64,000 nt of DNA from Hemileia vastatrix (taxonomy: Eukaryota; Basidiomycota; Pucciniomycetes; Pucciniales; Zaghouaniaceae), in NCBI GenBank assembly GCA_030280995.1, contig JASXTE010000016.1:15267001-15331000 (forward strand). The letters are read 5' to 3'. Numbering within the stretch: position 1 is the stretch's first letter; every line of letters starts with the position of its first letter. This document shows, piece by piece, positions 38,582 through 64,000 of this stretch. Made by a program: the position numbers and the translations under genes. Below the pieces are notes generated by a model. That model saw nothing but the letters and a program-made list of their open reading frames with translations. It did no database searches and was not told the origin of the DNA.

Positions 38582-38671
38582 CTCCGCAATGAGGATAAAC
38601 TACAGATTATTCTTTAATTTGGTTTTTTTGTGGTTATGCTATGCATCTGTTTTTTGGAATTTTGTGCTAGA

Positions 38672-41385: not shown

Positions 41386-41538
41386 GATCTGTGGTGAGAA
41401 AAGATGATGGCAAGAGATAGGAAGGAGATTTTTGTCAGTGATGGGTAGATGATGAAGTGAAGGTGGAAGTTCATCAGGTTGGCTGTAGAGGTATTCTGTA
41501 TGAAATTGGCTGCATTTATTTTATGCAAAATTCTGTCA

Positions 41539-42061: not shown

Positions 42062-42702
42062 TCAAGTACTAGTGGAATTACAGAGGGAATCAAGAGATGA
42101 AATGAAGTGTTCAGAATTAGCCTTGAACTGGTGAATGAGGTGTCTTCTGTTCTCAATGTCCTGTGGATCTCTAGCAGGAGTGGATTGGAAGTAGTGAAGC
42201 AGAAGGTGTTTCTGTTGAGATGTGTGTTGTTGAAACTTGGCCTTAATTGTGGGCAAGTGGTTTAGTTTTGGTGGTGCAATGGATCCTACATTGTTATCAT
42301 CACGATCAGAAGATGGAGGAACTGAAAAGTAATCAGTTTTAAAGTTGAAGGAATAAATTAAAGTTATTTACCATCAGATGGACCAGGAATGGTGTAAATT
42401 GTTGTTTTATGGGTTGTGGCACTTTTCTCGGAAGGGTGAAGCCTTTTGATTAATCTGGGTATCAGGATGGATGACCTAGATCTTTTGGTGCTGGTAGAAG
42501 ATGGACCAGGTTGAGGTGGAGGTGAATCTGTTGCAGAAGATAATGGACCAGGTCTGTAGCAAGGCTTCTTTCTAGATTGGCAGACATCGCAGGATGTTCT
42601 GTATGGATGGATAGATGGTGTCATGGCACAGATTAGACTATCGTCAATGCAGTATTGGCAAGGACCCATTTCAGAGGCATGTTTGGGAAGAAGGTTGAAC
42701 AT
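42062..42702 (-). CDS. AP1 antisense gene of Asz-F (Zn2Cys6-like, spliced)
   Basis: The start ATG at 42702 is 49 bp from the 3' LTR. Exon 1 is 42702-42372, intron 42371-42322 (50 bp, GTAAAT...TTTTCAG), exon 2 42321-42062 ending in TGA; the joined frame is open for 196 codons. Residues 13-43 hold CX2CX6CX12CX2CX6C (GPCQYC, LIC, CDVCQSRKKPC), the spacing of a fungal Zn2Cys6 cluster, though the basic residues sit in the second half rather than the first. A Ser/Pro-rich stretch and a basic KRSRSSILIPRLIKR follow, then an exon-2 helical part (QQKHLLLHYFQ). Asz-E has the same gene with the same intron position. A zinc-binding nuclear protein is inferred; transcription probably starts antisense in the 3' LTR. 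This is the only intact copy of any gene in the Asz family here. Confidence 0.75.
42322..42371 (-). other. Intron of AP1 (Asz-F)
   Basis: On the minus strand the intron is GTAAATAACT...ACTTTTCAG, 50 bp, with a CTGAT branch-like sequence about 12 bases before the acceptor. The reading frame is continuous only after its removal. The Asz-E intron (54629-54677, 49 bp) is at the identical codon and phase although its sequence has diverged. Confidence 0.75.
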
Positions 42703-42750: not shown

Positions 42751-43841
42751 TGTGGTCTTCCAACATTGGCAGGGGCCTTTTTTGTGTGATTTGGCACTGT
42801 TTGTGCATGTCTTAATTGACATCTGTTAAGGAATCAGGTATTTTTCTGGTTTTATTCTGTGGATGTTGTGTCTGCGGGTATGTGGGTACTATCATTGGAT
42901 AGCCCTGGTTTTTCTCTATATTTCATGTCTTGTAGACATTTTTCATATTCTAAGTTTTAAGGGGTCATTTCCTCATTTTTCATTTATAAAAGATAGCTGT
43001 TTAATTTTGTTTTTCATGTTTTACGGGCTAACCTTAAGTCTTAGGGTTAAGTGCTTAGTACCATTGGATAGGGCTAATTTTTCTCTATATTTCATGTCTC
43101 AATGTTGTTATAGTGAAATTCTGTGTTTAAAGGTTTTAGTAGTTGGAGCTAATTTTTCTAAGTAGATTAGTTGTTTTTATTGGTTTTCTGGATACAGGGA
43201 GGCCAGGCCGCTTCAGGGGGCACGTCGGACATCAGGCGGCCTGCCCGCCTCTGTTTTAGAAGGTTGGGGAGCGCTTCTGGAGGGTTTTTTATTCAATTTG
43301 GCAGGTACAGGCGCCAGATTTGTGGGTGTGCATGGGCTCTTAGAGAGTGGTCTGTGTGTACATAGTGAATAAGACAGTTTGGGGCAACTTTAATTATCAT
43401 ACAACCATCCGGAGGTGATATCCTTGTTCCTCACTCAGTTTTCACTGTTTTTGGCCAAAATTGGCTGTGTTTGTTGCAAGGTTAGTTCTTCATTTAACTC
43501 AAATTTGGCAACCGTTTTCTCTGGTGTAGTCTTGCAAGCTATATCAAGTAATATTGCTGTCTCTGGTGTGGATTTGCAACCTACATCAAGTATAATTGCT
43601 TTCTCTGGTGTGGACATTGGTCTACATTTCAGTTCTTTGGTCTGGTAGTCTGTCTGGGGCTACTTTCTTGGCTCATCAAGAAGTCAAGTGTGTTTAAAAA
43701 GGGGCTTTAGCAGACAGGAACCAACTTACTTTAGCAAGGAAATATCACTCTATTTTTCTAAAGGGACAGGGGATTTTCACTCTGGTTTTTCTCCAACTCC
43801 CTTGGTCAAGGCCAATAGCTAGTACTATAGGATTGTCTACA
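42751..43841 (+). repeat. 3' LTR of Asz-F
   Basis: It starts TGTGGTCTTCCAACATTGGC directly after the polypurine tract and ends GATTGTCTACA. It has the same GC-rich island (43195-43255) and 42-bp repeats (from about 43519) as the 5' LTR, to which it is highly similar with scattered substitutions. AP1 would be transcribed leftward from within or near its left edge. Confidence 0.9.
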
Positions 43842-44501: not shown

Positions 44502-45708
44502 TATCGGCCAGTCGTCTAGAGGAATGGAAGAAAAGAAGAGGGAAAAGGACAGGAGGAGAGGAAACTATAATATCTTATAAGTATGAGTAATAAAACTAAA
44601 ATATTTGTAGTTTGAGAAGAGAGGACGACGAGAGATTTTAAAGAGTTTAAAAAACTTGTTAAGAATTATTTAAATTGTATTATATTAAAATAAATAGTTG
44701 TATTCAATGCGCGACTGTCAATGATAGTATTATTAGACTTAAAGCAACCCATTATAATTTATATAGTATTTAAATTAGATAATAGAACTAATAAAAATAA
44801 TAAATAAAAGTAATATATTTAAAATATGTTAAGTGAGTGTATAATAAGTGATGAGCTACCAGAGAGGTTTCTAAAACCCTTTTATAGGCAATAGGACCTT
44901 CTAGAGCTTTAAAAATATAATTACAAAAAGGTAAAATAAAGTTAAAGAAATAATTAAAAGAATTTAATTAAAAACAATAAAAAAATAAACCTGTGATTAA
45001 ACAAATATCTTTTCCCATCAGAAACTCCTAAATAAGAATAGAACTAATATAGCAAATAACTACGTGAACATGGAAAATGAGAACTATGAGAAAAATTTTT
45101 AAGAGGGAATAAAAATAGCAAAAAAAGTATAATTAAAATAAAAGGAATTATTTTTACGCTTTTAAATATTCTTCATTCAGTATAAGTAAAGGTAATTTAA
45201 ATATTTTAACTATTCCAAGTAATTTAATGATTAAATTAATTGAAACAATTAATTAATTTAATAAAGAAACTTATTTAAGATGAGAAACTAAATCTAATCA
45301 TATTAAATAAATTTTTTTAATTAACTTAGAAATTTTAGTGATACAATTAAGAATCAAGGAAGTGCCAAATATTTATGGATATTATTATATGATGAGTTGT
45401 ACTTAGTTTATATAAATGTTATTATTAAAATTTTAATTAAAGTGTAAGTTAAATTTACACTTATAATTTAATTTTGAATAATTTATTTATACATACAAAT
45501 TACACCATGATATTATAGAATATTATATTTGTTTATGTAATAAAATTTATTTAACAATAAAATTAAGTATTATAATTATTTTATTTATTAATAAAATATT
45601 CATAATTTTATTTTAATAATTTTTTGTAATTACATAAAGTTATTCCTCTATATGATTACAGCAATTTATTGTATAAATTACTGGACTCCTGAGATAGCCT
45701 GGCTGACA
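44502..45708 (-). repeat. 3' LTR of Chv1-D
   Basis: It begins TATCGGCCAGTCGTCTAGAG (TG mutated to TA) and ends AGCCTGGCTGACA. The element-strand TATA box TATAAAA is at plus 44880-44886. Similarity to the Chv1-A LTR is strongest at the ends and around the TATA box and weak in the AT-rich middle. Confidence 0.88.
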
Positions 45709-45782
45709 CTCCCTCACTCTCAAAAAACAATAAAAAAAATGCTGAGATTTTTTCTTTTTATACTTTTTTAACAGAGTAGAGA

Positions 45783-47270
45783 TATTTGAAATTTCTTTTC
45801 CAGGTATCTATGCATCATGATCAGATGACTTGTTCTTATATCTCAATAAATATTCATTATCCCTTTCAGAAGTGATAATTCTATCATTGAGAATTTTATC
45901 AATTTCGGCAGTTTCTGTGACTTCCTGAGGGTTTTTCTTAGGTCTTCCCATTCTTTTGGGAAATAAGTCACTGTTAGAAGTATAAGGTTTAAGAAAAGAA
46001 ATGGGAAAAACAGGATTTTTCCTATCATATGGAGAATACAATACAACTTCTACTGCATTATCACCAACCATTCCTTTAACAACAAATGGTCCTACAAAAG
46101 GATCTTTTAATTTTTTGTTACCTTGTAAATTGAAATGGACATTAAATATCAACACTTCATAACCCTTTTTAAATGTGTATTCCTTATGGGATTTATCCCA
46201 TCTCTTCTTTTCATATTCAAAGGCTTTATCAATACACCTTTGAGCATGTTTTCTGCATAGCTGTTGCATTTGCATACAAGATTTTACACCAGGATATAGT
46301 TCCAACTTAGGTAATTTATTATTGAGAATCTGAGCAGGAGTGTTTGGGACATAACCTAACCAAAGCTCAAAAGGTTTTTTCTCAGTAACAGAATGAACAG
46401 TGCTATTATATGCAAATTCAAGACCAGGCAATAGAGTGACCCGGTCATGAGTAAATCTGTCATAGTCTTTATATTCTAAACCAAAGGCACAATACCTTCT
46501 AATCATATCTTCCAGAGTTTGAATCATTCTTTCAGCTAGACCATCAGTCTGAGGATGATGAGCTGTAGATAACTTTAACTCACAGCCACAAATATTCATC
46601 AAAGTGGTCCAAAACTCAGAAGTAAATTTTGGATCTCTATCAGAGATAATGGCTTTTGTAAATCCAATAATATTGAACATGTAAGTCCACCATAAGAAAG
46701 CTAATTATTTTTTGGATAAATCTTTTTGGGTGGGAATAAACTTGCACATTTTGGTGAAACTATCCACTATTACCCAACAAGAGTTGTAACTGTCTTTACC
46801 TTCTACAGGAAGACCAGTGACAAAATCCATGTTAATAATTTGCCAAGGAGAATCAGGTGCTTCAATATATTATAAAAATACGGCTCTTTTACCTGTCAAT
46901 CTTTTAGATTTTTGACAAGAATCAAAAGATTCAACATACAATTTAGTGTCTTCAGACATATTAGCCCACCAAGAAGTATTTTAAATTCTACTAATGGTTT
47001 TCTCAAGATCAAAATGTCCTGCTAATATGTCATCATGACATAGTTTTAAGATGGTTTCTTTAATGGAAGGAGGAATAAAAATGACATTGGTCAGTTTTCT
47101 CCTGTATTAAATATAACCATCTTCAAAGGAAAACTTTCCTTTACTCAAAGCACTCTAAGACTTTGGAGGATAAGTTTTTATCAATTCTTGGATAGAAGCA
47201 TTCTTTGGATCATTCAAGATTGTAACCAATTTATTCAAATCAGAATCTTGATCATATGAATCCAGAAATA
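45783..47270 (-). pseudogene. Chv1-D integrase and chromodomain
   Basis: The open segment 46680-45808 has the integrase core from IISDRDPKF through DGLAERMIQTLED (catalytic Glu present), the GPF module and a chromodomain (EIDKILNDRIITSERDNEYL). A TAG at 45808-45810 replaces the chromodomain Trp codon of the sister copies. Upstream (46681-47270) the zinc-binding part is recognisable but broken by several stops. The normal pol stop codon is itself mutated (TAG to CAG). Confidence 0.85.
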
Positions 47271-48780
47271 ATTGTAAAAGTTACTCTTCCATATCAAAAA
47301 TGTATATATCATGTATATGTACTGTATCATCTTTAGGTACATAGGCTGGATTAGATACATCATTTGGAAGAGGTAATCTGGACAACATATCAACATTAGA
47401 ATGAACATTTCCAGCCCTCTGAATAATAGTCATTCTACCTCTGTATTCTTGAACAAATAGTTGCCATCTAAACATATGTCTATTTGGTGTTTTCAAGTTT
47501 AAGAGGGATTTCACAGCACTACAATCAGTAACTAATTCAAAAGTTTGATCATCTAAGTAATAATGAAGCTTTTCTAAAGCCCAAACAACTGCTAAGCACT
47601 CTAATTGAGTGGCACCATACTTCAATTCACTTCTTCTTAAGGTTCTTGAAATATAACAAATTACTCCTTCTGGGACTTTTTCATTAATAATTTTTTTTGA
47701 TGAAGAGCAGCTCCAAGTCCAATAAAACTTGCATCTGTATAAATAACAAAAGGCTTATTAAAATCTGGAAGGGCAAGGATTGGAGCTGACATTAAACATA
47801 TTTTTAATGTATCAAAAGCTCTTTGATTGTCTTCATTCCTTATATATGCCTCATCTTTTCTCGTTAGTTTGGTAAGTGGTAAGGCTATGACTTGTTAATT
47901 TTTTATGTATTGTCTATAGTAGCCACACATTCTCAAAAAACTCTGTATTTCTTTAATAGAAGTTGGTGCTGACACATTTTTGATAGCCGCAACTTTTCCT
48001 TGGTCTACACAGATCTGTAAGCCAGACAAAACATGACCCAGGACTTTTAAGGATTGAAACCCAAATTTACACTTTTTTAAGGATAAAGTCATGTTAATTT
48101 AATCCATTTTCTGGAAGACTCTATTCAAGTGTTGTATATGTTCATCAAAAGTTTTAGAAAAAACTATGATTTCATCAAGATAAATCATTAACCAACCTTC
48201 AATTATTTCCTGATGAAATGTGTTATCCATTACTTTTTGGAATACTGAAGGGGCATTTTTAGGGCCAAAAGGAATCCTAAAATATTTGTAAATTCCCATT
48301 TGGGTTTCAATTAGCAAAAATTTTGGGAAGACTGTTCAACAGGTATTTGATGATAACCTTTATTACCATCCAGGCAGCTTATGAATTTAGCACCTTGTAA
48401 GGTAGCATGTATATAGCTAATTCTGGGTAATGGGTAAATATTGTCCACAGTATAAGTATTAAAAGCTCTATAGTCTCCACAAATTGTAGCTTTATCTTTC
48501 TCATAAGATATTAAAACTGGAAAGATGACACAATATTTTGGTGTCAAATCTACTTTTTCAATAATATTCATACTCAATAAAGTTGATATAATATCTTCTA
48601 TATATTTTCTCTTTGTGGGAGAAGCAGGGTAAGGTTTTTTCTTTAGGCTAGGAGGTATTTCATCCAAATTTCAGGATAGAGAAATTTTCATTTCATCTTT
48701 AACCAAGCCTAACACATGGGAACCATGAGCAAAAGCCATTGGGAAAGATGTAATTAAGGCTAGTATTGAATCTTTTTGGT
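47271..48780 (-). pseudogene. Chv1-D reverse transcriptase and RNase H
   Basis: The fragments are 48667-48311 (reverse transcriptase fingers and palm, ISCLDGNKGYHQIPVE), 48317-48099 (YKYFRIPFGPKNAPSVFQ and WLMIYLDEIIVF, where the catalytic YIDD has become YLDE), 48092-47895 (connection) and 47625-47281 (RNase H end, ELVTDCSAVKSLL). The second catalytic Asp of reverse transcriptase is lost as Glu. Frames change between fragments. Confidence 0.85.
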
Positions 48781-51234
48781 CATCAGTTAATTGATCACCA
48801 AATGAAGCTGTTTAAATTTCAGACAATAATACATTCAATTACTCTGTTTTTCTACCTTTAAATTGGATCAAAGAATGACAAGATTTTAAGAAGGGTACAG
48901 AATGCTTTTTAGAGGAAGAAATTTTAAATTTTCCTTTCCCATTCATTCCAAAAGTAAAAAAAATGTTTTCAGGATCCAATTTAATGCCAAACATGGTTAA
49001 AGTATCATTTCCCATGATAAACCAATTGCTTAAATTGTCATTTTTCATCACAAAAAATTCAAAAATAGCTCTGACAAAACCACCATTATATTTAAAGCAT
49101 ACAGTGGTTGTGTATTTTCCAATGGGACATAAAACAGAGCCATAACCTTTCAATTTTTCGGATGTTAAAAGTAATAGTTTGCATTGATAATCCTTATCTA
49201 CAGAAGCAATTGCTTTCTCAGACACTAATCTTCCTCCAGCACCAGAGTCAAGAATAACCTCAACATTTTTACCATTAATGATAACTGGTGCTCTCAAAGG
49301 TGATATTAAAATGGAACTGTCAGTAATATCTCTAATTACTTCAGCATTTTCTACAGAAGATAAGTCAATATCACAATTATCAGACCAATTATATAAATAT
49401 TGAATATCCTTTTCTAAACCAGAACTTCCTGAGAAGACTCATGGTCATAAGAGATATTGCTATTACAGTCACTGGAGGAATCATCAAGATCATCTTGAGT
49501 ATTTTCAGATTCCTCATTTTGTTCAGCAAGATGAACTTTCTTGTCACTAATATGTCCTTTTTGCCATTTTTTGTTACATTAAAAACAATTATTAGTTGCA
49601 TATTTCTTTGGAGAAACTGGGGAAGAGGGTCTACCATTTTTTCTGGAAGTTTTGTGGAAGGCTTTTGCTGGTCATGATAAGATTTAACAGGATAATTCCT
49701 TGGTTCATATCTATGATTTAGTAGGACTTAATTACAGATATTAATAAAGGAAGAATTCTCTCTCACATGCTCAGTCTTTGCCACAATCAAATCTCTCAGA
49801 GAATTCAGTAATTTGAAGAGAATTTTTTCTCTCCAAATATCATAATCCATTTTAGGATCCATGGCTCTAAGAATTTTTGTAATTTTCATAAGGAAAACAA
49901 TAGGTTTTTCAGGAGAGGAGGACACATATTTAGCATTCTCATATAATCTCTTCTGGGCAAGCCTGAATTTGGAACCACCAAATTGATTTTCAACCAAGGT
50001 TTTCCACTTTTTCCAAGTATAATGTTGATTGTTCAGTAAGACACATTCATACCACATTTAAGCTACATTGGAAAATAAAGAAATTAATTTAGAGACAATT
50101 TCTTCATCTAGCAATTTAAAAGAGTTTTTTAGGTTATTAACTCTCTGAAAATAATGTTGCCAGTCAGATGAAGAGTCACCATCAAAAGTGGGATATTGAT
50201 CCAGTTTGGGCCAATTTTTCTGGCTACTGGGATGGTCCATCTTTTTGGTTTGAATTATTTAACATTTATAAATGTTGAAGTTTAGCCAGGTGTTCATAAA
50301 TTTCATTATTTACAGAAAAAGCTTGTTCATTACAATTAAAAGAGTTTTTTCTAGTAGCAAAATATTTTACAGACTCATTGTCAGTTTTTTTAATGGCTGT
50401 AATATGGGGAAGAAAAGAGTTGCTCTTTTCAGGTTCCTTTCCTTTATTCTTATGCAGCTTATGGGCAGCACTTTCATCTACATCATAATAATTGATGGTT
50501 AAGGCTCAAATTTTTCCTGTAGTTCAGACACATAGTTTCTTATCCTTGTAATTTCAGACATCTCATCATTCATTTTTGCAAGGGATAAATCATTTCTGTC
50601 CTCAAAAACTGTGTGTTTGGTACTCAGTGCATTGAAATAATTTTTTAGATTTTTCAACTCATTGTGTAGAGACTTAATTTCACTTTTCAATGAATAATTT
50701 TCCTCAATAAGGGGTTTTTATTCACTCAAGTTTTATGTAGATTGATATTCTTATCTGAGATAGCTCTATGGTCACTTCTTATTTGTTTCTGTTGGCTAAG
50801 AAAATATTCAAAGTTTCTTGGATTTTAAAATAAACTGTATCTTGTAGAGAAGAACTCATTTTACAATGCAAGTGAAAATTTTTAAATCTATCACTCTAAT
50901 GTACTAATACATCTCTCAAATTTTTGACTTTCACAACATTAAAATCAAGTGTATCTTTTAATATATCCTTAGAAGTTTTCTCAAGTAAGATATAGACTTC
51001 AGGTGAAACAGAATGATTTTTAATTGCAAGAGAAGGATTAATTAATGAAGTAGAAGTCAAATGTAAAGGTTCATCAAATGATATTTTACTAATTACCTCA
51101 TTAGGGAGACTCATCAAAGAAATTTTTCTCTTTATGGGTTTAACTGTTCTTTCACCATGATCCACAATATTACCATTGGAAGAAGATTTGTGATTATACA
51201 TAGAAACATGTTTATCAAACAAATTTCTTACCAT
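48781..51234 (-). pseudogene. Chv1-D gag and protease
   Basis: Gag begins at ATG 51234, embedded in the overlapping stop/start ATGGTAA (plus 51228-51234). The N-terminal helical part is broken at about 50895 and 50700. The capsid is 50240-49728 (WPKLDQYPTFDGDSSSDW; MWYECVLLNNQHYTW), and a knuckle remnant lies near 49570. The protease is 49297-48839 with VILDSGAGGRL (DSG kept). The upstream overlapping frame survives only as the last codons GKFPPLPW-like before the deletion joint at about 51250. Confidence 0.82.
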
Positions 51235-51249
51235 GGCAAGGGAGGAAAA

Positions 51250-51595
51250 AAATTTATTAATTAATTTAATTACATTATAGGCTAATTTTATACTTATACT
51301 TATAATATATGTTTATCATTAATTAATTATTAATTTATATTTATTAAAACATAAAAAAGGGCCACAATTTGTAGAATATAACATTTATTATGCTTAATTT
51401 AAATGTATATATAACTTATATAATAGTTAAATTAATATAATCCTTATTTTACTTATATTTAATAAAACACTTATATAATTTTATTATGCAATATAATATT
51501 AGTTTATATACATAATAATCATATTTTTACGCCCTCTTTTGGTTCCATTAAATTTTCATAACATTTACTGGGCTCCTGGTATAGCCTGGCTGACA
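51250..51595 (-). repeat. Partial 5' LTR of Chv1-D
   Basis: This part matches about 345 bp of the right-hand (element-strand 5') end of Chv1 LTRs, ending GGTATAGCCTGGCTGACA. The inner two thirds of the LTR are missing; the joint to gag sequence lies within A-rich DNA near 51245-51252. Confidence 0.8.
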
Positions 51596-51992
51596 ATGGC
51601 TAAAGGTGGGAGTATTAGAATTAAGTGGGATAGGCCCTGAACTATATATTAAGGGATTGATAATATTAAAGATATAAAAATTAAGTTTTTTCCAGATTTT
51701 TTCACCACATGGTTTATTATTATCACTGTATTTTCTAAGGAGGCCAAGTTGTGTTATGAATTCTAAACAGTCTGAAGCTGACACAAGCTGGTGGTCCTGT
51801 GAGGAAATAAATAAACCACAAACACCATAAATCAAGCTAAAAGTAAGTGATTGATATTTATAGTGTGCATATTCTTGATTCATCTTATGAATAGAATAAG
51901 TATAAGACTCATCAAATTGCTGCATATTTGTCAATTTTTTTTATTCCTTGAACATCATTGATTTTTGCTTTGAGCTTGAGATATATTTGCAG
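51596..51992 (-). other. Short non-LTR segment with an unrecognised reading frame
   Basis: Between Chv1-D and Asz-E a minus-strand frame is open from about 51934 to 51596 and continues into LTR sequence to 51548. The residues (for example YKYQSLTFSLIYGVCGLF and SASDCLEFITQLGLLRKYSD) look like ordinary globular protein and resemble no retroelement domain here. There is no clear start, and a stop lies just upstream. It could be an exon of a host gene broken by the two elements, or chance. I do not recognise it. Confidence 0.4.
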
Positions 51993-54249
51993 TGTAGACA
52001 ATCCTATAGTACTAGCTATAGGCCTTGACCAAGGGAGTTGGAGAAAAACCAGAGAGAAATTCCCCTGTCCCTTTAGAAAAATATAAGTGAGATTTACCTG
52101 CTACAGTAAATTGGTTCCTGTTGTTTAAAGCCCCTTTTACAATACACTTAACTGCCTGATCAGCCAAGAAAGTAGTCTCCAGACAGAATACTAAACCAAA
52201 GAACTGAAATGTAGACTAATTTCCACACCAGAGAAAGCAATTATACTTGATTTAGGTTGTAAATCCACACCAGAGACAGCAATAATACTTGATATAGCTT
52301 GCAAGACTACACCAGAGAAAACATTTTCTAAAGTTGAGTTAAATGAAGAACCAACCTTGAAACAAAAACAGGCAATTGTGGCCAGAAATCAGTGAAAACT
52401 GAGTGAGGAAAAAGGATATAACCTCTGGATGGTTGTATGATAATTAAGTTTGCCCCAAACTGTCTTATTCACTATATACACACAGACCACTATCTAAGAG
52501 CCCATGCACACCAACAAATTTGGTGTTTCTGAGCACCAAATTGCATAAAACCCCTCTAGAAACACTTCCCAGCCTTCTAGAACCCAGGCAGGTGGTCTGC
52601 CTGACGTCAGGAGGCCTGCCTGAGGCGGCAGGAGCGCCCTGAAGCCATAAAACCACCAAAAACCTCCAAAAACACCCAAAACACTTAGAAAAATAAACTA
52701 CGGCTACTAAAACCTTTAAAACACATAATTAAGCTACAACAACATTTTGAAATGAAACTTAGAGAAAAATTAGCCCATTCCAATGTTACTAAGAACTTAA
52801 CACTAAGACTTAAGGTTAGCCCGTAAAATGCAAAAAACAAAATTAAACAGCTATCTTTTAAAATGAAAAATGAGAAATGATCCCTCAAATACTTAGAAAA
52901 TGAAAAATGTTGTCAGCCTAGGTATCTCCAGCACTGAGTAATTCTTATGTTTAAAATAATATAACCTTAAATAAATTAAGCTTATATCTTAAAAATAAGG
53001 TTAAAACACTTATATATATGTTATAATACATATATATATAATTATTACACTATTATATAACTTATAGTAGTTTAAATAGCTTATCCATAGCCTAATAAAA
53101 CTTATTAAGGTGTTAATGGATTCATAATATATTTATTTTAAGTTATATTAAGTAATTATTGACATACATAAGCTTATATGTATACATAAATCTCATATTC
53201 AGTGAAATATGCAGTATATTATGTATATTTATGTCTATAAGTGGGTTTTAGCCTCTTAATAGCCTATAAACTTTGTTTTTCTGCTTATTCTAGGTAATAT
53301 GGACGTATTTAGTGGATTGACAACACCTAAAGAAGAATATACATCTATTTCAGGCGCATATACTCAGTTTGGACAGCTTAATCTGTTTTCTTGGATGGAT
53401 ATTCACCGATTTATGGGTTGGGAGGTCATTGCTGGGTTAATATGGATGCTTGGGGATGTTATTGGGGGCTCGGAAATTTAATTTGTTTTGTTTATATGCT
53501 TTGGGTTTCATTATATACTCTTTAGATGAGTTATTTTACCTGTTTCTTTATGGTATCTGCTTTTATCTGGATTTTCTATTTATGGTATGGGTCTGTGTTA
53601 TCATTAATTGTGATGGAGGGTCCTTACTGGAGGTCTGGGTGTTGAATATGCTTGAAGTGGACGCCATGGGGAAGTGATGGGCCCTCACAGTGCTTTAATT
53701 GCCAGGGATAGCAGTAACATTGTCTGGATTGAAGGTCTGTGCACTCCAGTGGATTTTGGTATAAGTAAGGGAGGATTTTGACAGTTATTAGACATAAATT
53801 ACTTACTAAAATTAAATTAAAAGTTTAAAAACAATTATTATCATTAAGAAATATATTATAAAGCCTTTATAAATTGATATTATCATTATATAAGCTATAA
53901 CTATATTCTATTTATCTATTTTCCACCACTAGCACGCATTTAAATCCAAGTATTGCGAGTTTTATTTGAGTATAACTATTTTATTAGTCTTCCCCTGAGG
54001 TTTATTCACTAAATAATTTATCAATAAGTGGTAGGAACATTAATAAATACTATTAAATCATACTTATATACTAGATACACTGACAAATGTCATCAAGACA
54101 CAAAATATAGAGAAAAACTGGGGCTATCCAATGGTAATACCCACATCCCCGCAGTCCCAATATTCATCAAATAATTCTAGAAAAACAACCAATTAGTAAA
54201 CAAGGCCAAAAACACCAACAAAGGGCTCTGCCAATGTTGGAAGACCACA
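51993..54249 (-). repeat. 3' LTR of Asz-E, interrupted by solo LTR G
   Basis: It begins TGTAGACAATCCTATAGTAC and ends CCAATGTTGGAAGACCACA. It matches both Asz-F LTRs in reverse. Excluding the insertion 52911-54085 and one duplicated AATGT it is about 1,077 bp. The GC-rich island (52570-52640) and 42-bp repeat (52230-52320) are kept. Confidence 0.88.
52911..54085 (+). mobile_element. Solo LTR G (separate family) in the Asz-E LTR
   Basis: This 1,175-bp insert begins TGTCAGCCTAGGTATCTCC and ends GATACACTGACA. It is flanked by AATGT at 52906-52910 and 54086-54090, and the Asz LTR sequence continues across it. TG...CA ends and a 5-bp duplication mark a solo LTR. Apart from the terminal TGTCAGCC it does not resemble the other LTRs here. 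A 60-codon frame at 53299-53481 (MDVFSGLTTPKEEY...) has no recognised function. Confidence 0.82.
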
Positions 54250-54297
54250 TCCTCCCTTCAATAGAGAATGTTTACATTCTCCTTAATCACAACCACC

Positions 54298-54922
54298 ATG
54301 TTCAGCTTCCTCTCCAAATCTGCTACTGACATGGGTCCTTGCCAATACTGCATTTAAAACAGTCTCATCTGTACTATAACACTTCAAGACCCTCCCTACA
54401 GAACCTCCTGTGATGCCTGTCACTCTAGGAAGAAGAATTTTTTCAGACCTGGTCCATTGTCCTCTTCAACATATTCTTCTCCTCCACAACCTGATCCACC
54501 TTCCACCAGCACCAAAAGATCCAGACTATCCATCCTGATCCCCAGACTGGTCAACAAGTAAAACCCTTCAAAAAAGAGTGCCAACACCGCTAAAAACACT
54601 AGCTCTTCCATCCCTAGTCCTTCTGATGGTAAGCTCAATACTTCTTCATACTGAAATTCAATCTGACAAATTTCCAGTTCATTTCCATCCGGAAAGTGAT
54701 GATGACAATGTGGGAACCATTGAAGAACCCCCACCTAATCCATTGCCAACCATTAAAGATAAGTTCCAACAAAATTCTTCTCAACAGAAGCATCTCATTC
54801 TAGATTACTTCCAATCCCCTCCTTCCAGGAACCCACAGGACATTGAGAAAATGAAGAACCTCATCAACCAGTTCAAAGCCAATGCTGAACCTTTTGTTAC
54901 ATCTCTTGATTCTTTTCTGTAA
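54298..54922 (+). pseudogene. AP1 antisense gene of Asz-E
   Basis: The ATG at 54298 is 49 bp from the LTR, as in Asz-F. Exon 1 is 54298-54628 (331 nt, the same length as in Asz-F), the intron 54629-54677 (GTAAGC...TTTCCAG) and exon 2 54678-54922. The joined frame matches AP1 of Asz-F throughout (MGPCQYC, PYRTSCDACHSRKK, STSTKRSRLSILIPRL, QQKHLILDYFQ). Two in-frame stops (in the Cys cluster and after PRLVNK) and loss of the last cluster Cys inactivate this copy. Confidence 0.75.
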
Positions 54923-55371
54923 TTATTTCTTGCCCAAAAATCATTATTTAGAAATAAAAAATAAAAAAAACTCTTCATTTTAAAGTCTTGGGGGACTAAT
55001 CCTCAGTTTTAAGTCTTGGGGGACTAACAACCCTCATTTTATTGTCTTGGGGGACTCAAAATCCCTCAGTTTATAGTCTTGGGGGACTCAAAACCTGAAT
55101 CAAAAATACAGAACCAGAGATCAAAACATTAAAGACCAAAGAAACAAACTAACATTCTGGGGTAACTGTTTTACAGAGCAGCCAGCTCATCAGTTACCCC
55201 CAGACTTGCCTGAACAAAATTCAGAGACTCCGCCTTGGATGCCCTCTGCCAGAATCACACCAAATCCACATTATCAGTTTTTAGTCCTGAAGGACTCAAC
55301 CAACAACCATCCTCAGTTTATATTCTTGGGGGACTGTACCATTTCTCAGTTTAAAGTCTTGATGGACTACT
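54923..55371. other. AP1-AP2 spacer of Asz-E: dyad motifs and hairpin
   Basis: Four copies of the dyad motif, here as CAGTTTATAGTCTTGGGGGA, lie at about 54976, 55003, 55034 and 55066, and three more at 55277, 55315 and 55347. Hairpin unit H1 occurs with arms GGGGTAACTG (55159-55168) and CAGTTACCCC (55191-55200), a perfect 10 bp. There is no gene. Confidence 0.8.
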
Positions 55372-55632
55372 CACCACACAATATGGGGGGCGGACTTGCT
55401 AGCAAGTCCGCAACCTTGGACCCAAACTCACCATAGATTGAACAAACATTGAGCTATTGATAAAGGAGCCATACAATCAGGAATGAACACCACTCAGAAG
55501 AACAGTTTTAGGTGGGTGTTCAAGTAGAGTTCAGTATGGGTTCAGTATGAGTTCAGTCTGAGTTCCATCTGAGTTCCATCTGAGTTCAGGTTGAGGACTT
55601 GCTAGCAAGTACACCCCCTATATTGCGTAGTG
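55372..55632 (-). mobile_element. MITE copy 4, CACTA-type, in Asz-E
   Basis: This 261-bp copy is flanked by ACT (55369-55371 and 55633-55635). It starts CACCACACAATATGGGGGG and ends ATATTGCGTAGTG, with the palindrome GGACTTGCTAGCAAGTCC near the left end and seven 11-bp units near the right. It lies inside the dyad-motif array upstream of AP2; Asz-F has no insertion there. Confidence 0.92.
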
Positions 55633-55638
55633 ACTAGT

Positions 55639-55714
55639 GTTCAGTTTAAAGTCTTGACGGACTACCAGTGTTCAGTTTAAAGTCTTGACGGACTATACAA
55701 ATTTTTCATATAAA
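55639..55714 (+). promoter_or_regulatory. Putative AP2 promoter in Asz-E
   Basis: Two tandem copies of the dyad motif (55639 and 55671, CAGTTTAAAGTCTTGACGGA) are followed by a TATA box TATAAA at 55709-55714, 132 bp before the AP2 ATG. Asz-F has a similar CATAAAATAA in the same place (near 41520, minus strand). The role is inferred from position and the TATA match. Confidence 0.5.
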
Positions 55715-55845
55715 GGCGGAGCCACCTCCATGCACAGTGCTCCACAGCCAACTTGCTGAACTTCCACCCTTTCTTTATTATCTACACATCACTGACAAAA
55801 TTTTCATTCATCTCTTTTCTCTTCATTATTTCTCCTTCACAGATC

Positions 55846-57399
55846 ATGGCTGAATCTCCAAAATTTGACTCATCGGACCTTCCCTGTTTCACTGCTCCAA
55901 AGGACTTTGCTTGTAAACAGTGCATCCACATGTGCAGGCCTTGTACCTTCACTCTTCCTACTCCTCAAGCCACATTCTATAACAGAGCCTGTGATTCTTG
56001 AAACTCTAAAAAAGATGTGAAAGAGACCCCAACTATCCAATACCTCCGCCCTCACCTTCACAAAAGAATATTTTCAGATCTCCTACCAGGTCACCAGAAC
56101 TTGCGCCTGCTTCTTTTTCTTTCTCTTCTGCTCCTTCCAGAAGATCATGCCGTTCTGTTCCCAAAACACTCCCTAAAAGACTTGCTTTATCTTCTCAAGA
56201 ATCTGCTTTTATCTCAGGAAATTTGGCCAAATCAGCTTTAAAATCAGCTCCCAGGCTGCTAGAACACGTCCAGGCAGCCCGCCCGCCTTGCCAGAAAGTA
56301 AAAGTCAGGTTAAAAACTCCCAAATTCAGCCAGATAACAGCCAAAATACACCATTAAACACCAAGAACTCTACACCACCACCTCCTAGTGCTCCCAGAGC
56401 GATGCATAAACACCAAATTTCTTCCCCAGACAACCCCAAAAATTCCAACAACTCTAGAAAACCTGCCAGAGGACCTTCTGAAAACACCAGAGCACACAAC
56501 ACTGCTTCCAAACAAAAATCTCCGGTTACTTTAAGAAGAACTAACAACACCTCTCCTCTGGCTGCCAATTATTCCTCTGATGGTTCCCTTTCTTTTAGAT
56601 CTTCATCCAGAAAATCACAATCAGCTTCCATGTCACCTTCTCCTGATACTTCCTTCAAAAATCCTGGTTCTCAACCACCAGTGTCCAACCGAACTGGGCC
56701 AAACAATAATAATATCCACAACAACAACAACAGCAGCCCTTCTGCTCCAACCAGGCCACAGAAACACCCTTTTTCTGCTTCATCTTCTCAAGACCATTTA
56801 TAGAATGATCATTAGAATCCATACCTCTATCTGGTTGATCCTCCTTCAACATCCATTCAGCTTTCTTCAACAGCTCAAATCCCGGCTGCTTAAAAATTTG
56901 ATGAGCTTCCAATCTGTAAGTACTAAATCAATAAATCCAATTTCTTTAACAGAGAACAATTACTGATCTAATTCTTCTGTGTAGTTAGACCCCACCTCCT
57001 GAAACTACAATTGGGATTGGTCAACCTCTAGAAACTACCTTAAAGCTGGATTACGCTGACATGAAACAAAATCTAAGCATGATGTGTTCAAACATGCTTA
57101 AGGCCTTTTCCCTCCACGGTCCGTTGAATGAATTTGAAAAGAATCTGAGGAAAAAGCTCCTTGATGACCACTGGAAGATGTCTAGAATAATCAAGCACAC
57201 CTTCCAACACTTGATCCCCGCTTCTCCCACTTCTTCCCAAAAATTACCTTGCACTCCAGTACCTGACCATTACAATCCATATACTCTTTCGAGCCGCCTA
57301 CACCAAAAAGAACACAGTTCTTCTTCTAATCCTAACAAAATGCAAAAACGCCACCATAATCCAGAACAACTTCCAGAGGCTTCTTCTTCCAGACATTAA
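55846..57399 (+). pseudogene. AP2 antisense gene of Asz-E
   Basis: The ATG at 55846 opens MAESPKFDSSDLPC and the cluster CKQCIHMCRPC...ACDS, then a TGA replaces the next cluster Cys and a one-base loss shifts the frame. The basic Ser/Pro part (SAPSRRSCRSVPKTLPKR) resembles the AP1 tail. 56288-56803 is open and Ser/Pro/Asn-rich. NPYLYLVDPP...KFDELPI then leads to a 69-bp intron (56916-56984, GTAAGTACT...GTGTAG), as long as in Asz-F, and the last exon has IGIGQPLE, MCSNMLKAFSLHGPLN and HWKMSRIIKHTFQ to TAA at 57397-57399. The join between the Cys-rich exon and the 56288 frame is unresolved. It is inactivated by several stops. Confidence 0.72.
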
Positions 57400-58740
57400 A
57401 ATAAACAAGAAAGAAATTAATAAGTCACTAAATAGAGAGAACAATAATAATCAACAGAAATATATGATAAAAATTGTTTTATTTTTATTTTATTTATTAT
57501 TTATTTTACTTTATTTTTTATTTTACTTTATTTTTATTTTTATTTTTATTTTTTTTTATTTTAAACTAATAACATGCTAAAAAAAACTTGAAAATAAATA
57601 ACAAAATTAACCAAAAATATGAGAGTTGAAAAATTAAAATGAAATGAATAATAATAATAACATGAGACAAATAATAGTTACTTATGGTATCCCCCAGCCA
57701 ATTGATGAGCTGATCCCCTGATACATTACCCACATCCAAGTGCACCTTGATGTGAATACATTGTTAAGTAAATTTTAAATGAATTGAAATAAAAAATAAA
57801 GATAAAATAATTAGAAATTGAGAGAATAATAAGAGAAAGAAGGAAAAAAGCATTACTCGGCCAATAGATGAGCCTTTCCCAACCAATGCTTGCCCACATC
57901 CAGGTGACCCTGATTTGGTAACACCATATAATATAATTTGTGATTTTTCCCTCTCTATATCCTAATAACTCCCATAAAAAATTAAAAGAAAAAAAGAGAA
58001 AAAAGAAAATAATCTAAAGCTACTATCTAAGACAGCCATAGACACAAAAATCAAAGAAAAGAAAAAAATCCAGCTCCATAGAAAGTCCAGTCCAAAGAGA
58101 TGATCACTGGGTGGGCTCCCTCCAATAAGTAAAAATGATGGGAGACCACCAGTGATCCACCACTAAACCAAATAGACAAAAGAAGCCTGTCCCAAGCCAG
58201 TAATCCAGTTTAAAGTCATAGTGGACTTGAAACCTGAATAACAAAAACCAGAAATAGGATTAAACTAGGACAAACAAAAATACTTGAAAAAGACATTATG
58301 GGGTAACTGTTCTACAGAGCAGCCATCTCATCAGTCACCCCCACACTTGCCAAATAAAATCTAGAAGCCCCTCTGGGTACCTTTACAGCAAAAAACAAAA
58401 TCCAACACATTAAACCAAAACCAATAAGCGTGAAGAGTCCTGCACTTGAAGACCAAAAGAATTTCAAGTTTAAAGTCATAGAGGACTAAAACCTGTGAAG
58501 AAAAACCAATACTAGGGCTCAACCAAATTGAGACAAGGGGTTGGAAACAGACAATCTGGGGTAACTGTTGATAGAGCAGCCAGATCATCAGTCACCCCCA
58601 CACTTTCCAAAATAAAATCTAGAAGCCCCACCCTTGGGTACCTTCTAACAAAAAGTTTCCAACAAAACAGATGCACAGCATCACCAAAATCCAAAACTAA
58701 AGAATGATCCATAGTTTATCCTCATTGTGGAGTCAATCTT
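57400..58740 (-). other. Post-pol region of Asz-E: hairpins and AT-rich filler
   Basis: This mirrors 38582-39850. 57470-57560 is TTTTA-rich filler. 57685-57762 and 57852-57930 are the two larger inverted-repeat units (GGTATC.../CCACATC type). H1 hairpins occur with arms 58300-58309/58332-58341 and 58558-58567/58589-58598; in both, one pair is a G-U wobble on the element strand. Dyad-motif relatives lie near 58207 and 58469. There is no gene. Confidence 0.75.
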
Positions 58741-61700
58741 ATTCACTTTTTGTGCCTCTAGGATAAAATCTCTTCACCTGATCTGCAGCCACTCTCTTCT
58801 TTAACACTGCGCCATCTAACTCCTCCAAAAAATAAGAACCTCCAGACACCTTAGATCTGACTCTTTAAGATCCATTCCATCTTTCAGAAAACATCTTTCC
58901 CCACTTACTCTCCAAACTTCTATTATACACCAAAACCAAAAAACCAGGTTTCAAGGGATTCCTGAGTCTATGAGCCAGCTTTTTGTCCCAGTATATGACT
59001 GATTGATCTCTTATCTTCATCATTCTAGAGTATGCCTTCTCTTGACATTCCTCTCTACATTCCAACTGTTGCATCCTGGAACAGAGAAAATCTTCTGTTG
59101 AGCATATATCATCCCAATCAATCCCAAGATAAGAGACAGCTTCCAAATACACTGATAAAACAGCTTTCTGCCCAAAAATTAATTCATAAAGGGAATAGCC
59201 AGTTGTCGTTTTCACAGCGACCCTATCAGCAAATAACACCAAGGGTAAATAATGCCTCCATTTTTCAGCACTATCTCCACACATCTTCACCAAAGAATGT
59301 TTGATAACTTGATGGCCTCTTTCAACCATGCCTTCAGCTTCAGGATAATAAGGTGTAGCCACTCTGAATTTAGGACCAATACTTACCAAAGCTTCTTTAA
59401 ATTCAGCTCCAAACTCTGGCCCGCAATCAACAGTCACCAAATTCATTAACCCATACCTAAATACCCATTCTTTCTTTAAAAATTCTGCCAAAGTTTTGGC
59501 AGTCAAATTTACCAGATGCACCGCCTCAACCCAACCAGACAAATCATCCCTGAAAAAAGTAAAGAATTTATACCTTCCCTCTTTGATATGGACAGCATCT
59601 AAACTGACTCTTCCAAACACAGTTGTTTCACCAGTAGCACGGCCAATATCAAGGGGTCTTTCAAGTCTTGAAGGTTTTTCAAGGAGGTTCAATGGCAGTA
59701 ACAACGGGATTTATGTGCTCAAAATTAATGTACGTATTTTCTTAATCTTTTGATTTAATTACTCAAATAATAATAGGTGGTTTCAGATACTAGTATAATT
59801 TATATTTTAGAATTACGTAGATGTAAATACTAATGTTATAAAAGATAGTAATAAACGTTCTAATAAATGTATTGTGAATTGGTAAAATAAGTAATTAATG
59901 AATGAAAAGTACAAAAAGAGAGGGCCCTTTTATAGGCAAAGATGTGAGAAATAAAGACACAGAGTTAACACCACCTGATACAAGGGTGTGAGAAAAAAAA
60001 ACTAAAGAAAGAGTGTATGTAAAATAATAAAAGATATACTAAATAGTGCGTTAATAAAAGGTATCATTTTATTTGAAATAAAAATTAGAATCCCTTGTTC
60101 TGTCACATTTAAAACAGAAACATTTGATTTAAAATGTTGATTCAACAAAATCTAAATAAAGGAATTTGAAAAGTATCTTCTTTTTATATTTTATATTTTT
60201 AGTACTATTTCTATTCCCTCTCATCTGTATTATTGAGCACAGTGTTAGGGAGTAAAAATGTATGTGACAATTACTTATTTCTATTAATTATTTACATTAC
60301 TTATTGTACTTAGCTAGTTAGTTGTAAGTAATACATAAGTAGTTAGTAAATAATTAATTATTAATAAGGATTTAAAAGGTGTGGCTTCATCTCAGTAAGA
60401 TAATTAATTATTTTACTGGGTAAGTCTAGTAGCCTGGCTGACAGCCAACCTCTTTAGGTTTCAAGTTACTTCTTCTTTGAATTCTTCACAAGATTGAACC
60501 CAAACCTGAACAGCCAACATCATTCCTGGCCACCAAAATCTATTTGTTACTCTTCTATAGGTCTCCCCAAAGCCTCTATGACCAAGGTCTTCATGCAAAG
60601 ACTTCAAAACCAATTCTTGACCCTTCTTCTGAGTCACCACCACTTGAGGATTTGGATGTCTCTTCCTCATCAACCTCCTTCCTGACTCATAAAAGCCAGG
60701 ACTCTTCTTCTTTATTTCCACCCAAGTATCATCATCACAAGTATCTGGCCTCTCTAAGGTTAACAGATATTCAACCATAATCAAATAAAACCCAATCTGA
60801 CCCCAGGTCTCATCTTCAAAATACAAAAAAACAACATCCTAAGGGTACAACACTATCATCAAAATCTCCAGTGTACACATGAGCAACACGTCCAGCCCAT
60901 CCAGGACACCAATCTCTAAATTTTGGCACATCCTTTCCCTTCCACTGAATCTTATCAGAATCCAGTTCACCAACAAAAACACCATTTTCCAATTTTGAGC
61001 CATCCCAAACAACGGCCCCATCTTCATCAATAAAAAAATCTTGATCACCAGAATCAAGATCAGAACCAGCCAGTTTAACCTCTTGGTGGAGGTGAGAACA
61101 ATCATCCAGTTTAGCCTCTTGGGGGAGGATAGAAAAATCTTCAGCACCATTTGTGCTGGCCCTAACCACTGGAACATCTTCATCAAATACTTCAGAATAA
61201 GAATCATCATCTGTGGGTGGTCTTCTTGATAATCCATTTGGCATTGTAAAAGTCTTACCTGGCTTGTGCACCAGGTCAAAAGAAAAATGTTGAATAAATG
61301 ACACCCACCTAGTCATTGGAGCATTTGGAAGACTAGGTGAGTTGATCATTTGAACCAGAGATTGAGCATCGACCTGCAGCTCAAAATGCTGCCCCCACAA
61401 AACGGTTTGTATCTTCTTCAAAATTTTTGCTTCACCACACAATTCCAACTTTGGCTGAGAATACCTAGATTCCACCTCATTAAAAACTACATACTCATAA
61501 CTTACTAGCCTTAGCTTCCCAGCTTTATCTTCCTGAGACAAAACAGCACCAGCAGCAATATAACTTTAGTTCACTGCCAGATAAATTTTTCCAGCTTCCC
61601 TTCCATAATCCAACTTGTGAAGAATAATATCTTCACCTACCACCCTCTTCAATTTCTGAAAAGCCTCTTCACACTCTTCAGTCCATTCCCACTCCGCATC

Positions 61701-62957
61701 TTTCTTGGTCAACCTTCTCAAGGGTGAAGCCAACAAAGAAAAATATTTAATAAAAATCCTGATGTACACACAAACTCCCGAAAATCCCCTAACTTCAGTA
61801 GTATTTTTGGGCCTTGGCCATGACTGAATTTTATTAACTTTCTTCTTTGCCATAATCCTTCCCTCCTTACATACAACATGACCCAGGATTTCCAGAGCAG
61901 GAACAAAAGAACAGAACTTTGACCCAGAAATGATCAAACCAGCCTCTTCAGTTCTAAACAATACTCTATCTAGAGTAATTGCATATTCCCAAACAAATCT
62001 CCTTACTCCTGGATTCTCCTTCAGAACTTCATTTCCATTATCAGTGGAGGGTCCTTTTATTCAACCTTCATCAATAAAAATACCAGCATGAGTCCGAACC
62101 CCATCCTGTAAAATCCAAGCCATTTGAGCTTGATATACTGCTGCTGAATTAGTTGCTCCTTGAGGCAACCTAGTGAGCTGAAATCTTCCCAGAGGAGTCT
62201 CAAACGTTGTAAGTGGCAGTGAATCAATGTGAAGTTCCCTTTCATCATAACCACCAATAATATCTCCCAAACCATAACATAACCTTTCAGAAAAAGCTTC
62301 CACAAAGTTCTCCCCACTTGGTGGCATCCCTGCATCCTTGATAGTGACTCTATTCAAGGCCCTAAGATCATGCACCACCCTCAACTTCCCATTCTGTTTC
62401 TGAACACAGAAAACCGGACTTGAGTAACTAGAAGTTGATTGTTCATACAATCCTGTCCTGACTCTTTCCCTTACAATCTCCACAAAATCATCCCTGATAG
62501 CAGCTGGAATTTGAATAGGTTTGATTTTCAAAGGCTCATGATAAACCTCAGTAATCAAATAAGGTTCCCCATAAGAGTGTTTCAATACACCCCTTTCTTC
62601 TTCAACAAATTCCACCGCTTTCTCCCTGAGCACAATAATGTGAAACAACAATTTCTTTTCCTCATCAGACAACCACCCATCAGGACCCAAATTAACAACT
62701 TTCAACCTCTCCACAGTCACCCAAGTGGTTTCCACAAAATCAGGAGGATTCTTCACCAGAGGAGTACAGTATGGATCTCTTGAAAATGCAGGCTTCTTCA
62801 AAGAAGAATTCAAACCCACAGGCATGGGCTCATTGACAGGCCTAATCTTCTGCACTACCTTCTTGTACTTTGCAGCTCCACCGTCAACTTGAGGGATCTT
62901 CAGGATATCTTCACCACCAGACCTGGAACAAAAACCAAGGGTTTCCCCATTTCTCAC
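58741..62957 (-). pseudogene. Asz-E pol: reverse transcriptase, RNase H, integrase
   Basis: The N-terminal region and reverse transcriptase are 62957-62061 (LRVVHDLRALNRVTIKD, QLTRLPQGATNSAAVYQAQM, GIFIDEG, where Glu replaces the second catalytic Asp). Thumb and connection are 61961-61566, RNase H with tether 61541-60816, and the zinc domain 60826-60461 (HEDLGHRGFGETYRR). After solo LTR H the core is 59704-58865 (SLDAVHIKEG, TVDCGPEFG, EGMVERGHQVIK), and the GPY-type tail runs to about 58741. Stops at 62061, 61566 and 58865 lie in otherwise continuous frames. There is no chromodomain. Confidence 0.88.
59647..60443 (-). mobile_element. Solo LTR H (Chv2 type) in the Asz-E integrase
   Basis: This 797-bp LTR begins TATCAAGGGGTC and ends TAGCCTGGCTGACA, flanked by GCCAA at 59642-59646 and 60444-60448. 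It interrupts the integrase between the zinc domain and the core. The element-strand TATA box TATAAAA is at plus 59928-59934. A solo LTR with intact duplication is the usual product of recombination between the two LTRs of an inserted element. Confidence 0.92.
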
Positions 62958-63811
62958 ATGTGTGGCCCAGGTAATGTTTTGAAAAGTGTAGAAGAAACCT
63001 TAGCAGTTCACAATTGGGAGGACTTACTTTTAGACCCCAACCTCACCGCTCCACAACTTTTCTGTAATTCCACATTTTCATCCTCACAACCATCTTCCAA
63101 ATCTTCAAATATTGATTCATCTTCTGAATCACATCTTATAAAATTATGCAGTTTATCCTCATGCTGGAGGCCCAAAAATTGATCTTGATGATCTTCTCTC
63201 TTCAAAAATTCATGCAGTTTAACCTCATGCTGGAGGTTCAAAAATTGGTCTTGACAATCTTTTTTCTTCAAAAATTTGTGCAGTTTATCCTCATTCTGGA
63301 GGCCCAAAAATTGATCTTGATGATCTTTACAAAAATAATTCTTTTCTTCTTTTTTAATTATCTTCATATTTTTTTCTTGCTTTTCCTCAGTTATCTTGAA
63401 ATTTTTATCTTCTTTTCTTGAGGTTTCTTCCATCCTACAAAAATAACCGGGGGTTTCCCCAATGCTCACAGATGAGGCCAAGGTAATGTTTTTGAAAGAC
63501 ATAGAAGAAATCCAAGCGGTAAACAATTGGGATGACTTAGTTTTATATCCCAATCTCACCACTTCACTTCTTTTCCACATATCTTTCAATAAAGATATAT
63601 AGACAATCTTCTTTTTTGAAATTGAATTAAAAATAATTGAAAATCTTGAGAGAGAACAGATACTTGATAAAAACATGAAGAATACTTGCAGAGAAGAGAA
63701 ACATTAACAATAGAAAGTTGAAAATTTACTTGGTATATCTCCAAGGGAGCTGACCTACTACAACCTGGCATTTCATTATCTTGGGGAGAGGTTGTAGCAC
63801 TAGGGAAATCA
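62958..63811 (-). pseudogene. Gag-pol linker of Asz-E with 66-bp repeats
   Basis: The frame 63676-63008 (222 codons) contains an N-terminal Ser/Ile-rich part, a first copy of a segment with SSQLFTAWISS and SIGETPGYFC, a Lys/Glu-rich stretch, and nearly three 22-residue repeats (DHQDQFLGLQHEDKLH type). An acidic stretch and the start of a second segment copy (VRLGSKSKSSQL, ended by TGA) follow; the frame reopens into pol at 62957. It corresponds to 34403-35053 of Asz-F. It is probably a translated N-terminal extension of Pol of unknown role. Confidence 0.62.
63148..63330 (-). repeat. 66-bp coding tandem repeat (about 2.8 copies)
   Basis: Units start at 63148, 63214 and 63280, each opening GCAGTTTAWCCTCATKCTGG on the plus strand. 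The period is exactly 66 bp, which keeps the frame (22 residues). Asz-F has two units (34901-35013). Confidence 0.85.
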
Positions 63812-64000
63812 GCCCTTATTACTCTAAAAAAGAAAGAATCTCACTAGAGCCTGACCGACACTCCAAAAAACCAGAGGCGGCACCCACTTCTTTTCTTCTC
63901 CTACAACAATCCATGCACTGGCACATTGAAGACAAGCCTGGCCTGGTCTCCCAAACATCATCTCCAGGAGATGATAACCTCATTTGAAGCCTCCTCCCAT
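63812..64000 (-). pseudogene. End of Asz-E gag-protease, cut by window edge
   Basis: On the minus strand the sequence matches the last ~60 codons of the Asz-F protease frame (34230-34402): SSPGDD, then CQCMDCCRRRKEVGA, then FLEC and ILSFLE before TAA. The Cys-rich tail is conserved in both copies. The rest of gag lies beyond the window. Confidence 0.8.

Follow-up and report, generated by a model that had tools for sequence, protein, structure and literature searches.

Two related genes, AP1 and AP2, lie on the strand opposite to gag-pol, between pol and the 3' long terminal repeat (LTR), in two Ty3-type retrotransposons of the same family in Hemileia vastatrix. The window analysed here is a 64-kb stretch of contig JASXTE010000016.1, and the two elements, designated E and F, were compared throughout. 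We have high confidence, from the comparison of E, F and further genomic copies, that AP1 and AP2 are real antisense genes under purifying selection. Our preferred reading, to which we give about even chances, is that these selected and predicted spliced genes encode zinc-cluster-like proteins that probably bind an adjoining array of AGTC-N6-GACT repeats and thereby regulate transcription of the element. For a regulatory function of the AP proteins as such, our confidence is moderate.

The order and spacing of the two genes are alike in E, which lies on the minus strand, and in F, which lies on the plus strand, as an initial annotation of this DNA had stated. The start codon of AP1 is found at 54331 in E and at 42669 in F, 82 nt from the edge of the 3' LTR in both. 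Each gene consists of two predicted exons. In both genes, exon 1 encodes the cysteine domain and the intron is in phase 1; the predicted introns measure 49-50 nt in AP1 and 69 nt in AP2. The entry of the initial annotation ran from 54250 to 57399; the part from 54250 to 54330 falls outside, before the conserved ATG, and the remainder stands, but as two predicted exons per gene. On the plus strand, AP1 of E thus comprises exon 1 (54331-54628, with the zinc-cluster-like domain), a predicted intron with the borders GTAAGC...CCAG (54629-54677) and exon 2 (54678-54922). AP2 follows with exon 1 (55846-56915, the zinc-cluster-like domain and then a long low-complexity part), a predicted intron with the borders GTAAGT...TAG (56916-56984) and exon 2 (56985-57399). 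The counterparts in F are on the minus strand, namely AP1 exon 1 (42372-42669, 298 nt as in E), intron (42322-42371, 50 nt) and exon 2 (42062-42321), and AP2 exon 1 (40336-41385), intron (40267-40335) and exon 2 (39851-40266).

Once its predicted intron is removed, AP1 of F is open over 185 amino acids, and both predicted splice joins of F preserve the frame, though its AP2 is damaged elsewhere by frameshifts, a 19-nt deletion in exon 1 and one in-frame stop in exon 2. AP1 of E carries stops at 54355 and 54559, and AP2 of E has a 4-nt deletion near 56004. The gene borders are well kept among genomic copies. In 18 E-like copies, AP1 retains the ATG in 17, the donor GT in 17 and the acceptor AG in all 18; exon 1 is open in 10 of them and the full spliced frame in 5. 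For AP2, 34 of 36 copies retain the ATG, 34 the donor GT and all 36 the acceptor AG, and the zinc part is open in 22. Exon 1 of AP2 is 1090 nt long in 4 of the 18 E-like copies and 1084 nt in the two F-like copies that lack the 19-nt deletion. Furthermore, 140 of the 150 protein matches to AP1 exon 1 (the best 150 of 10303 candidates) contain no stop.

Substitutions between E and F are distributed over the antisense frames as expected of coding sequence, with 144, 118 and 255 changes at codon positions 1, 2 and 3 over 645, 642 and 642 sites, respectively (chi-square p 4e-14). The ratio of nonsynonymous to synonymous substitution rates (dN/dS) between E and F was 0.24 for AP1 (bootstrap 0.15-0.37, 177 codons; 0.18 for exon 2) and 0.14 for AP2 (0.09-0.21, 240 codons; 0.15 for exon 2), the pools excluding the weakly constrained middle of AP2, for which the ratio was 0.64 (210 codons). 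In most constrained segments, the remaining two antisense frames gave ratios above 1. The sense frame that shares the third codon position was also low, as the geometry predicts, yet where constraint is strong the antisense frame was lower still. Sense and antisense were equal at 56803-56990 (0.38 each), the sense frame was marginally lower at 56540-56803 (0.59 against 0.61), and no clear constraint was seen at 56200-56540.

We then examined further copies, comprising 20 E-like loci (5-kb stretches) and 20 F-like loci (3.4 kb each) chosen by AP2 exon 2 from the best 40 scored of 3043 and the best 40 of 2912 candidates. For AP2 exon 2 the set has 41 rows, namely E itself and all 40 loci, F being present as locus L021. 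The other segments have 37, four loci (L051, L059, L022 and L030) having been dropped because their upstream part was unalignable. Between the subfamilies, dN/dS was 0.11 in the zinc part, 0.13 in the segment termed b and 0.14 in AP2 exon 2, and within the subfamilies it was 0.48-0.93 in these segments. For late AP2 exon 1, the values were 1.04 and 0.88 within and 0.43 between the subfamilies, and AP1 gave 0.83 and 0.69 within the E-like copies. Among the same copies, shifted antisense frames gave 1.46 and 2.01 and noncoding sequence 1.04. The AP2 pattern, as read from these ratios, is that of a gene kept during element replication and drifting after insertion. The claim that both genes belong to the family is borne out by selection between E and F, for AP2 also across the 37-41 copies, and by the collinearity of both genes in 18 of the 20 E-like copies, which were picked by AP2 exon 2. 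Purifying selection across many copies, the absence of which would have refuted the initial annotation in its own terms, was indeed found.

The same ratios bear on the possibility that AP1 and AP2 are chance open frames or a shadow of sense coding, which we consider extremely improbable and have rejected. The G-rich sense strand does yield C-rich antisense frames, and the third-position-sharing sense frames are lowered as well, to an equal or marginally lower value in two AP2 segments. Nevertheless, the antisense frames are lower in the strongly constrained segments and mostly have fewer stops, the splice borders join frames, and the cysteines are kept across copies. The comparison with other frames suggested in the initial annotation also came out in favour of genes, with 0.11-0.14 in the antisense frames between subfamilies against 1.46 and 2.01 in the shifted ones.

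AP1 and AP2 have an N-terminal domain in common (tblastn within the window, E 2e-6; hhalign probability 92, E 7e-7). The commonest cysteine pattern is C-x2-C-x6-C-x12-C-x2-C-x6-C in AP1 (9 of 14 open rows) and C-x2-C-x6-C-x15-C-x2-C-x6-C with two further cysteines in AP2 (12 of 20). In the passages that define it, the zinc-cluster motif is given as Cys-X2-Cys-X6-Cys-X5-12-Cys-X2-Cys-X6-8-Cys (PMC5412356; PMC6220061 has the same X5-12 linker); the AP1 linker of 12 lies inside the X5-12 range of PMC5412356 and the AP2 linker of 15 outside it. Four natural AP1 N-termini were scored with the Pfam profile Zn_clus, and three of them (from loci L042, L045 and L058) passed its cut-off of 21 bits with 22.0-22.4 bits. 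In these three, residues 3-19 match profile positions 18-35, and the N-terminal half of the profile is matched late in the proteins, positions 1-14 by residues 25-38 of F AP1 and positions 1-16 by residues 47-62 of AP2. The halves thus match in swapped order, and we therefore call the domain zinc-cluster-like and keep it out of Zn2Cys6 membership. It resembles the Gal4-type Zn2Cys6 domain in its C-x2-C-x6-C-x(12 or 15)-C-x2-C-x6-C spacing and in the AP1 copies that pass the Zn_clus cut-off, but differs in its swapped halves, in the basic residues of its second half, in the AP2 linker of 15 and in being encoded by a retrotransposon. We infer a fold around zinc for this domain. In AP2, the middle is of low complexity and weakly constrained, and an AlphaFold model of AP2 exon 2 (two sequences) contains two confidently predicted helices and a low-confidence tail.

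Searches for protein relatives returned none at E <= 1, either for AP1 among 54 candidates or for AP2 among the 7987 candidates with most shared words. In the assembly, Zn_clus gave 13 matches among the 150 of 3256 candidates that were scored. Twelve of the 13, all located below about 111 kb, are on contigs other than the 18 with a listed AP match, and these contigs possibly derive from another fungus in the assembly.

The spacer between AP1 and AP2 contains an array of iterons of about 22 nt of the AGTC-N6-GACT type, and stray copies lie near the end of pol. At no more than 3 mismatches, the window holds 17 iteron matches, and 100 shuffles held none. The exact AGTC-N6-GACT string occurs 16 times in the window, always in the 3' internal regions of E and F, and other spacer lengths from 0 to 15 occur at 0 or 1 site each. 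The array of F (41538-41999) has 8 copies. That of E (54976-55694) is split by an insertion of about 271 nt (55369-55641), one occurrence of a roughly 270-nt repeat that is also found outside E and F at 10719-10984 and 28929-29199. Among 314 iterons from 40 loci, the arms are kept and part of the spacer varies, and the changes within the arms (10 G.U against 17 A.C) are of the kind that a DNA site would show. Iteron-like dyads of the form CCTC-N6-GAGG, in which both arms have changed together relative to AGTC/GACT, were seen inside pol at 37026, 61128 and 61092.

In the mechanism that we favour, an antisense promoter in the 3' LTR (42751-43841 in F, a likely source of antisense transcript) would drive AP1, and a second promoter beside the array would drive AP2. 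Both antisense transcripts would be spliced at the conserved borders, and the AP proteins would bind zinc and the iteron DNA between the genes. Autoregulation of the antisense unit could then restrain or time the production of genomic RNA, because this unit runs head-on into gag-pol transcription. On this reading, the AP proteins act on the array by AP2, where they most likely autoregulate the antisense unit and thereby tune genomic RNA. A fuller version is more tentative, namely that the duplicated spliced antisense factors, their half-swapped zinc cluster and their own site array may make up a self-contained control system that toggles the element between genomic RNA and antisense restraint. 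Being on the antisense strand, the predicted introns would stay in the genomic RNA, and this would explain how intron-bearing genes can persist in a retroelement.

Several observations weigh against the favoured reading, among them the state of AP2. A complete AP2 frame was found in 0 of 36 copies, and exon 1 has often lost 19 nt (21 nt in one copy) between short GC-rich repeats; this deletion is carried by 9 of the 18 E-like copies and by 16 of the 18 F-like ones, the latter count being read off printed rows. The deletion site is a GC-rich palindromic stretch in both subfamilies (at about 41000-40970 in F and about 56240-56280 in E), and a similar GC-rich string occurs in the LTR near 31320. 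The AP2 frame is thus shifted in many copies and complete in none of the 36, so not every amplified copy needed an AP2 of its own. These losses are real evidence against a need for AP2 in cis, but the protein may work in trans, or a short form of it may be functional. They would also suit a passenger, that is, a captured gene pair or nested element of no use to the retrotransposon, as would the two-exon structure and the host-type domain. We judge this improbable, given the low dN/dS, in the range of pol or under it, both for E against F and for one subfamily against the other, and the collinearity of both genes in nearly all E-like copies.

Furthermore, silent-site divergence between E and F is higher in AP1 and AP2 (0.45-0.62; 0.39 in the AP2 middle) than in pol (about 0.19-0.39). 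Nearby noncoding sequence diverges by 0.12-0.26, save for two higher values, 0.47 in the AP1 intron and 0.41 in the stretch that follows AP2. Exchange of modules or another cause may lie behind the raised values. For AP1, the comparison between subfamilies is that of E with F alone. The protein domain also counts here. AP1 of F (13.9 bits) and the AP2 pieces (14.8-18.0 bits) fall below the Zn_clus cut-off, and the profile halves do not match in the usual order of Zn2Cys6, so a standard Zn2Cys6 fold is not established. An AlphaFold model of AP1 exon 1 from a single sequence was unusable (pLDDT 54), searches of the PDB gave one weak unrelated match each, and no homology was found between exon 2 of AP1 and exon 2 of AP2.

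The LTRs of the window contain no exact AGTC-N6-GACT site, so there is no indication of a direct action on the 5' LTR promoter. Human T-cell leukaemia virus type 1 has a spliced antisense gene at its 3' LTR, HBZ, which encodes a bZIP protein of this retrovirus. The initial annotation had proposed a comparable regulator; a regulatory role is plausible in view of the zinc-cluster-like domain and the candidate sites, but the lack of exact LTR sites argues against direct HBZ-like control of the 5' LTR. The comparison with HBZ is an analogy only, the proteins here being zinc-cluster-like and the LTR lacking an exact target. The absence of LTR sites also speaks against AP1 and AP2 being repressors that hold down copy number or contribute to silencing in the manner of HBZ or Ty1 p22, with long and short forms of AP2 in competition. 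The convergent orientation fits such a role, and the deletion does shorten AP2, the first stop falling at residue 150 in four F-like copies and at residue 171 in two E-like copies. The short AP2 may, however, simply be broken, and we regard this alternative as unlikely.

A last point against binding of iteron DNA is that the iteron arms could, when folded, also form a hairpin. Iterons acting as RNA hairpins were considered on this ground and are disfavoured. Changes in the arms gave 10 G.U pairs, 17 A.C and 51 other non-pairs, and RNA pairing is not favoured because this lacks the excess of G.U that marks the stems of a second repeated feature, a stem-forming module of about 100 nt. The module is present on the sense strand in three copies per element, flanking AP2. 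In E, the copies lie on the minus strand at 55153-55252 (r3, as sense-strand RNA), 58294-58391 (r2) and 58552-58651 (r1), and in F on the plus strand at 41755-41854 (r3), 38925-39023 (r2, with an iteron copy next to it at 39089) and 38664-38763 (r1, with one at 38828).

In a structure-free MAFFT alignment of the six module copies, 96.5% of cells pair (iteron stem included), compared with 30-57% in slid controls. Covariation among the six exceeded that in all 500 shuffles, and double-change cells numbered 6 versus 2.5 in shuffles; the number of pair types was not raised (reached by 323 of 500). Among 85 matches from 40 loci, double-change cells numbered 60 versus 14.5 in shuffles, and 9 pairs had double changes, which is within the slid controls (4-10). 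This larger alignment was fitted to the model, and refolding it regained only part of the first stem. G.U pairs outnumbered A.C by 147 to 23 in the 85 matches, where a single pair accounts for 58 of the 147, and by 17 to 1 in the six copies, where a single pair accounts for 6 of the 17; the pairing therefore appears to be on the genomic (sense) strand. An Rfam scan of the window gave no match.

The modules probably serve the genomic transcript as an RNA signal of their own, for instance in export or packaging. The structured modules round AP2 and their paired changes also lend some weight to another role for the AP proteins, as RNA-binding helpers akin to Rev or nucleocapsid, with the hairpin modules of the genomic RNA and not DNA as their target, and cysteine-rich basic domains are capable of binding RNA. 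However, the nearest profile, Zn_clus, is of a DNA-binding type, and host factors alone could serve the modules. We consider this role unlikely and prefer binding of the iteron array.

The initial annotation had taken antisense genes in a fungal Ty3 element to be undescribed, which proved incorrect. Published passages describe an antisense extra open reading frame in Boty of Botrytis cinerea, among antisense genes located between pol and the 3' LTR (PMC7264820), and the antisense gene brtn (Zhao et al. 2011, as cited in PMC8365987; also PMC4227169). The brtn gene of Boty is, like AP1 and AP2, an antisense extra gene of a fungal Ty3/Gypsy element; in these passages it is a single gene, whereas AP1 and AP2 form a related pair, each with a predicted intron and a zinc-cluster-like domain, the comparison being one of descriptions only. 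Grande gene23, RIRE2 and Retand TRP28 of the plant Tat lineage are likewise antisense, and the passages on the TRP28 region of Retand describe tandem-repeat arrays and predicted DNA binding (PMC11963269, PMC7264820). The Tat elements differ in having plant hosts and another protein domain, and the passages of these two papers describe the Retand repeats as being of unknown function and draw no connection between them and the protein.

In the literature searched by title and abstract opening, we found no zinc-cluster antisense genes in a retrotransposon, and no paper in the literature searched combined 'circularly permuted' with 'Zn2Cys6'. As far as searched, the gene pair, its predicted introns, the half-swapped zinc-cluster-like domain and the linked candidate array are new; antisense genes in such a placement were already known from plants and, in the passages cited above, from Boty. 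A review states that the roles of antisense accessory genes of LTR retrotransposons are yet to be determined (PMC7264820, in the part consulted). The present family offers several handles on this question, namely a DNA-binding-type profile, an adjoining candidate array, selection over many copies and splice borders that are conserved. Should the proteins indeed bind the array, one could test directly whether a retrotransposon regulates itself by means of antisense genes, and a zinc cluster with swapped halves, if true, would represent an unusual way of arriving at a DNA-binding domain.

The ends of F fit an LTR retrotransposon. Its LTRs (30836-31927 and 42751-43841, 95% identity) have TG...CA borders, a purine tract precedes the 3' LTR, and the 5' LTR is followed at 31932 by a site that we take to be primer-binding-like. 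E passes the edge of the window at 64000. The order of Pfam domains is that of Ty3/Gypsy elements in both, with RNaseH before integrase (H2C2, rve) in F and RVT_1 before RNaseH in E. For the pol piece of F, the nearest named relatives among 120 listed are rust fungi, with identities of 66% to Puccinia coronata and 53-69% to Austropuccinia psidii among the matches listed. A search for viral contigs with the pol piece confirmed nothing. The AP matches scored (40, 40 and 150) are spread over 18 contigs of the 748-Mb assembly, each of which exceeds 20 Mb by its length or by the match coordinates. The gag-pol sense strand of both elements (window 30000-64000) has a strong excess of G over C, the skew being +0.20 to +0.39 across F in 2-kb steps and, on the plus strand, -0.21 to -0.34 across E (54001-64000). 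Another Ty3-type family is present in several copies at about 3500-18450, 23095-29200 and 45672-51600, one of which has an open RNaseH-integrase frame of 709 codons.

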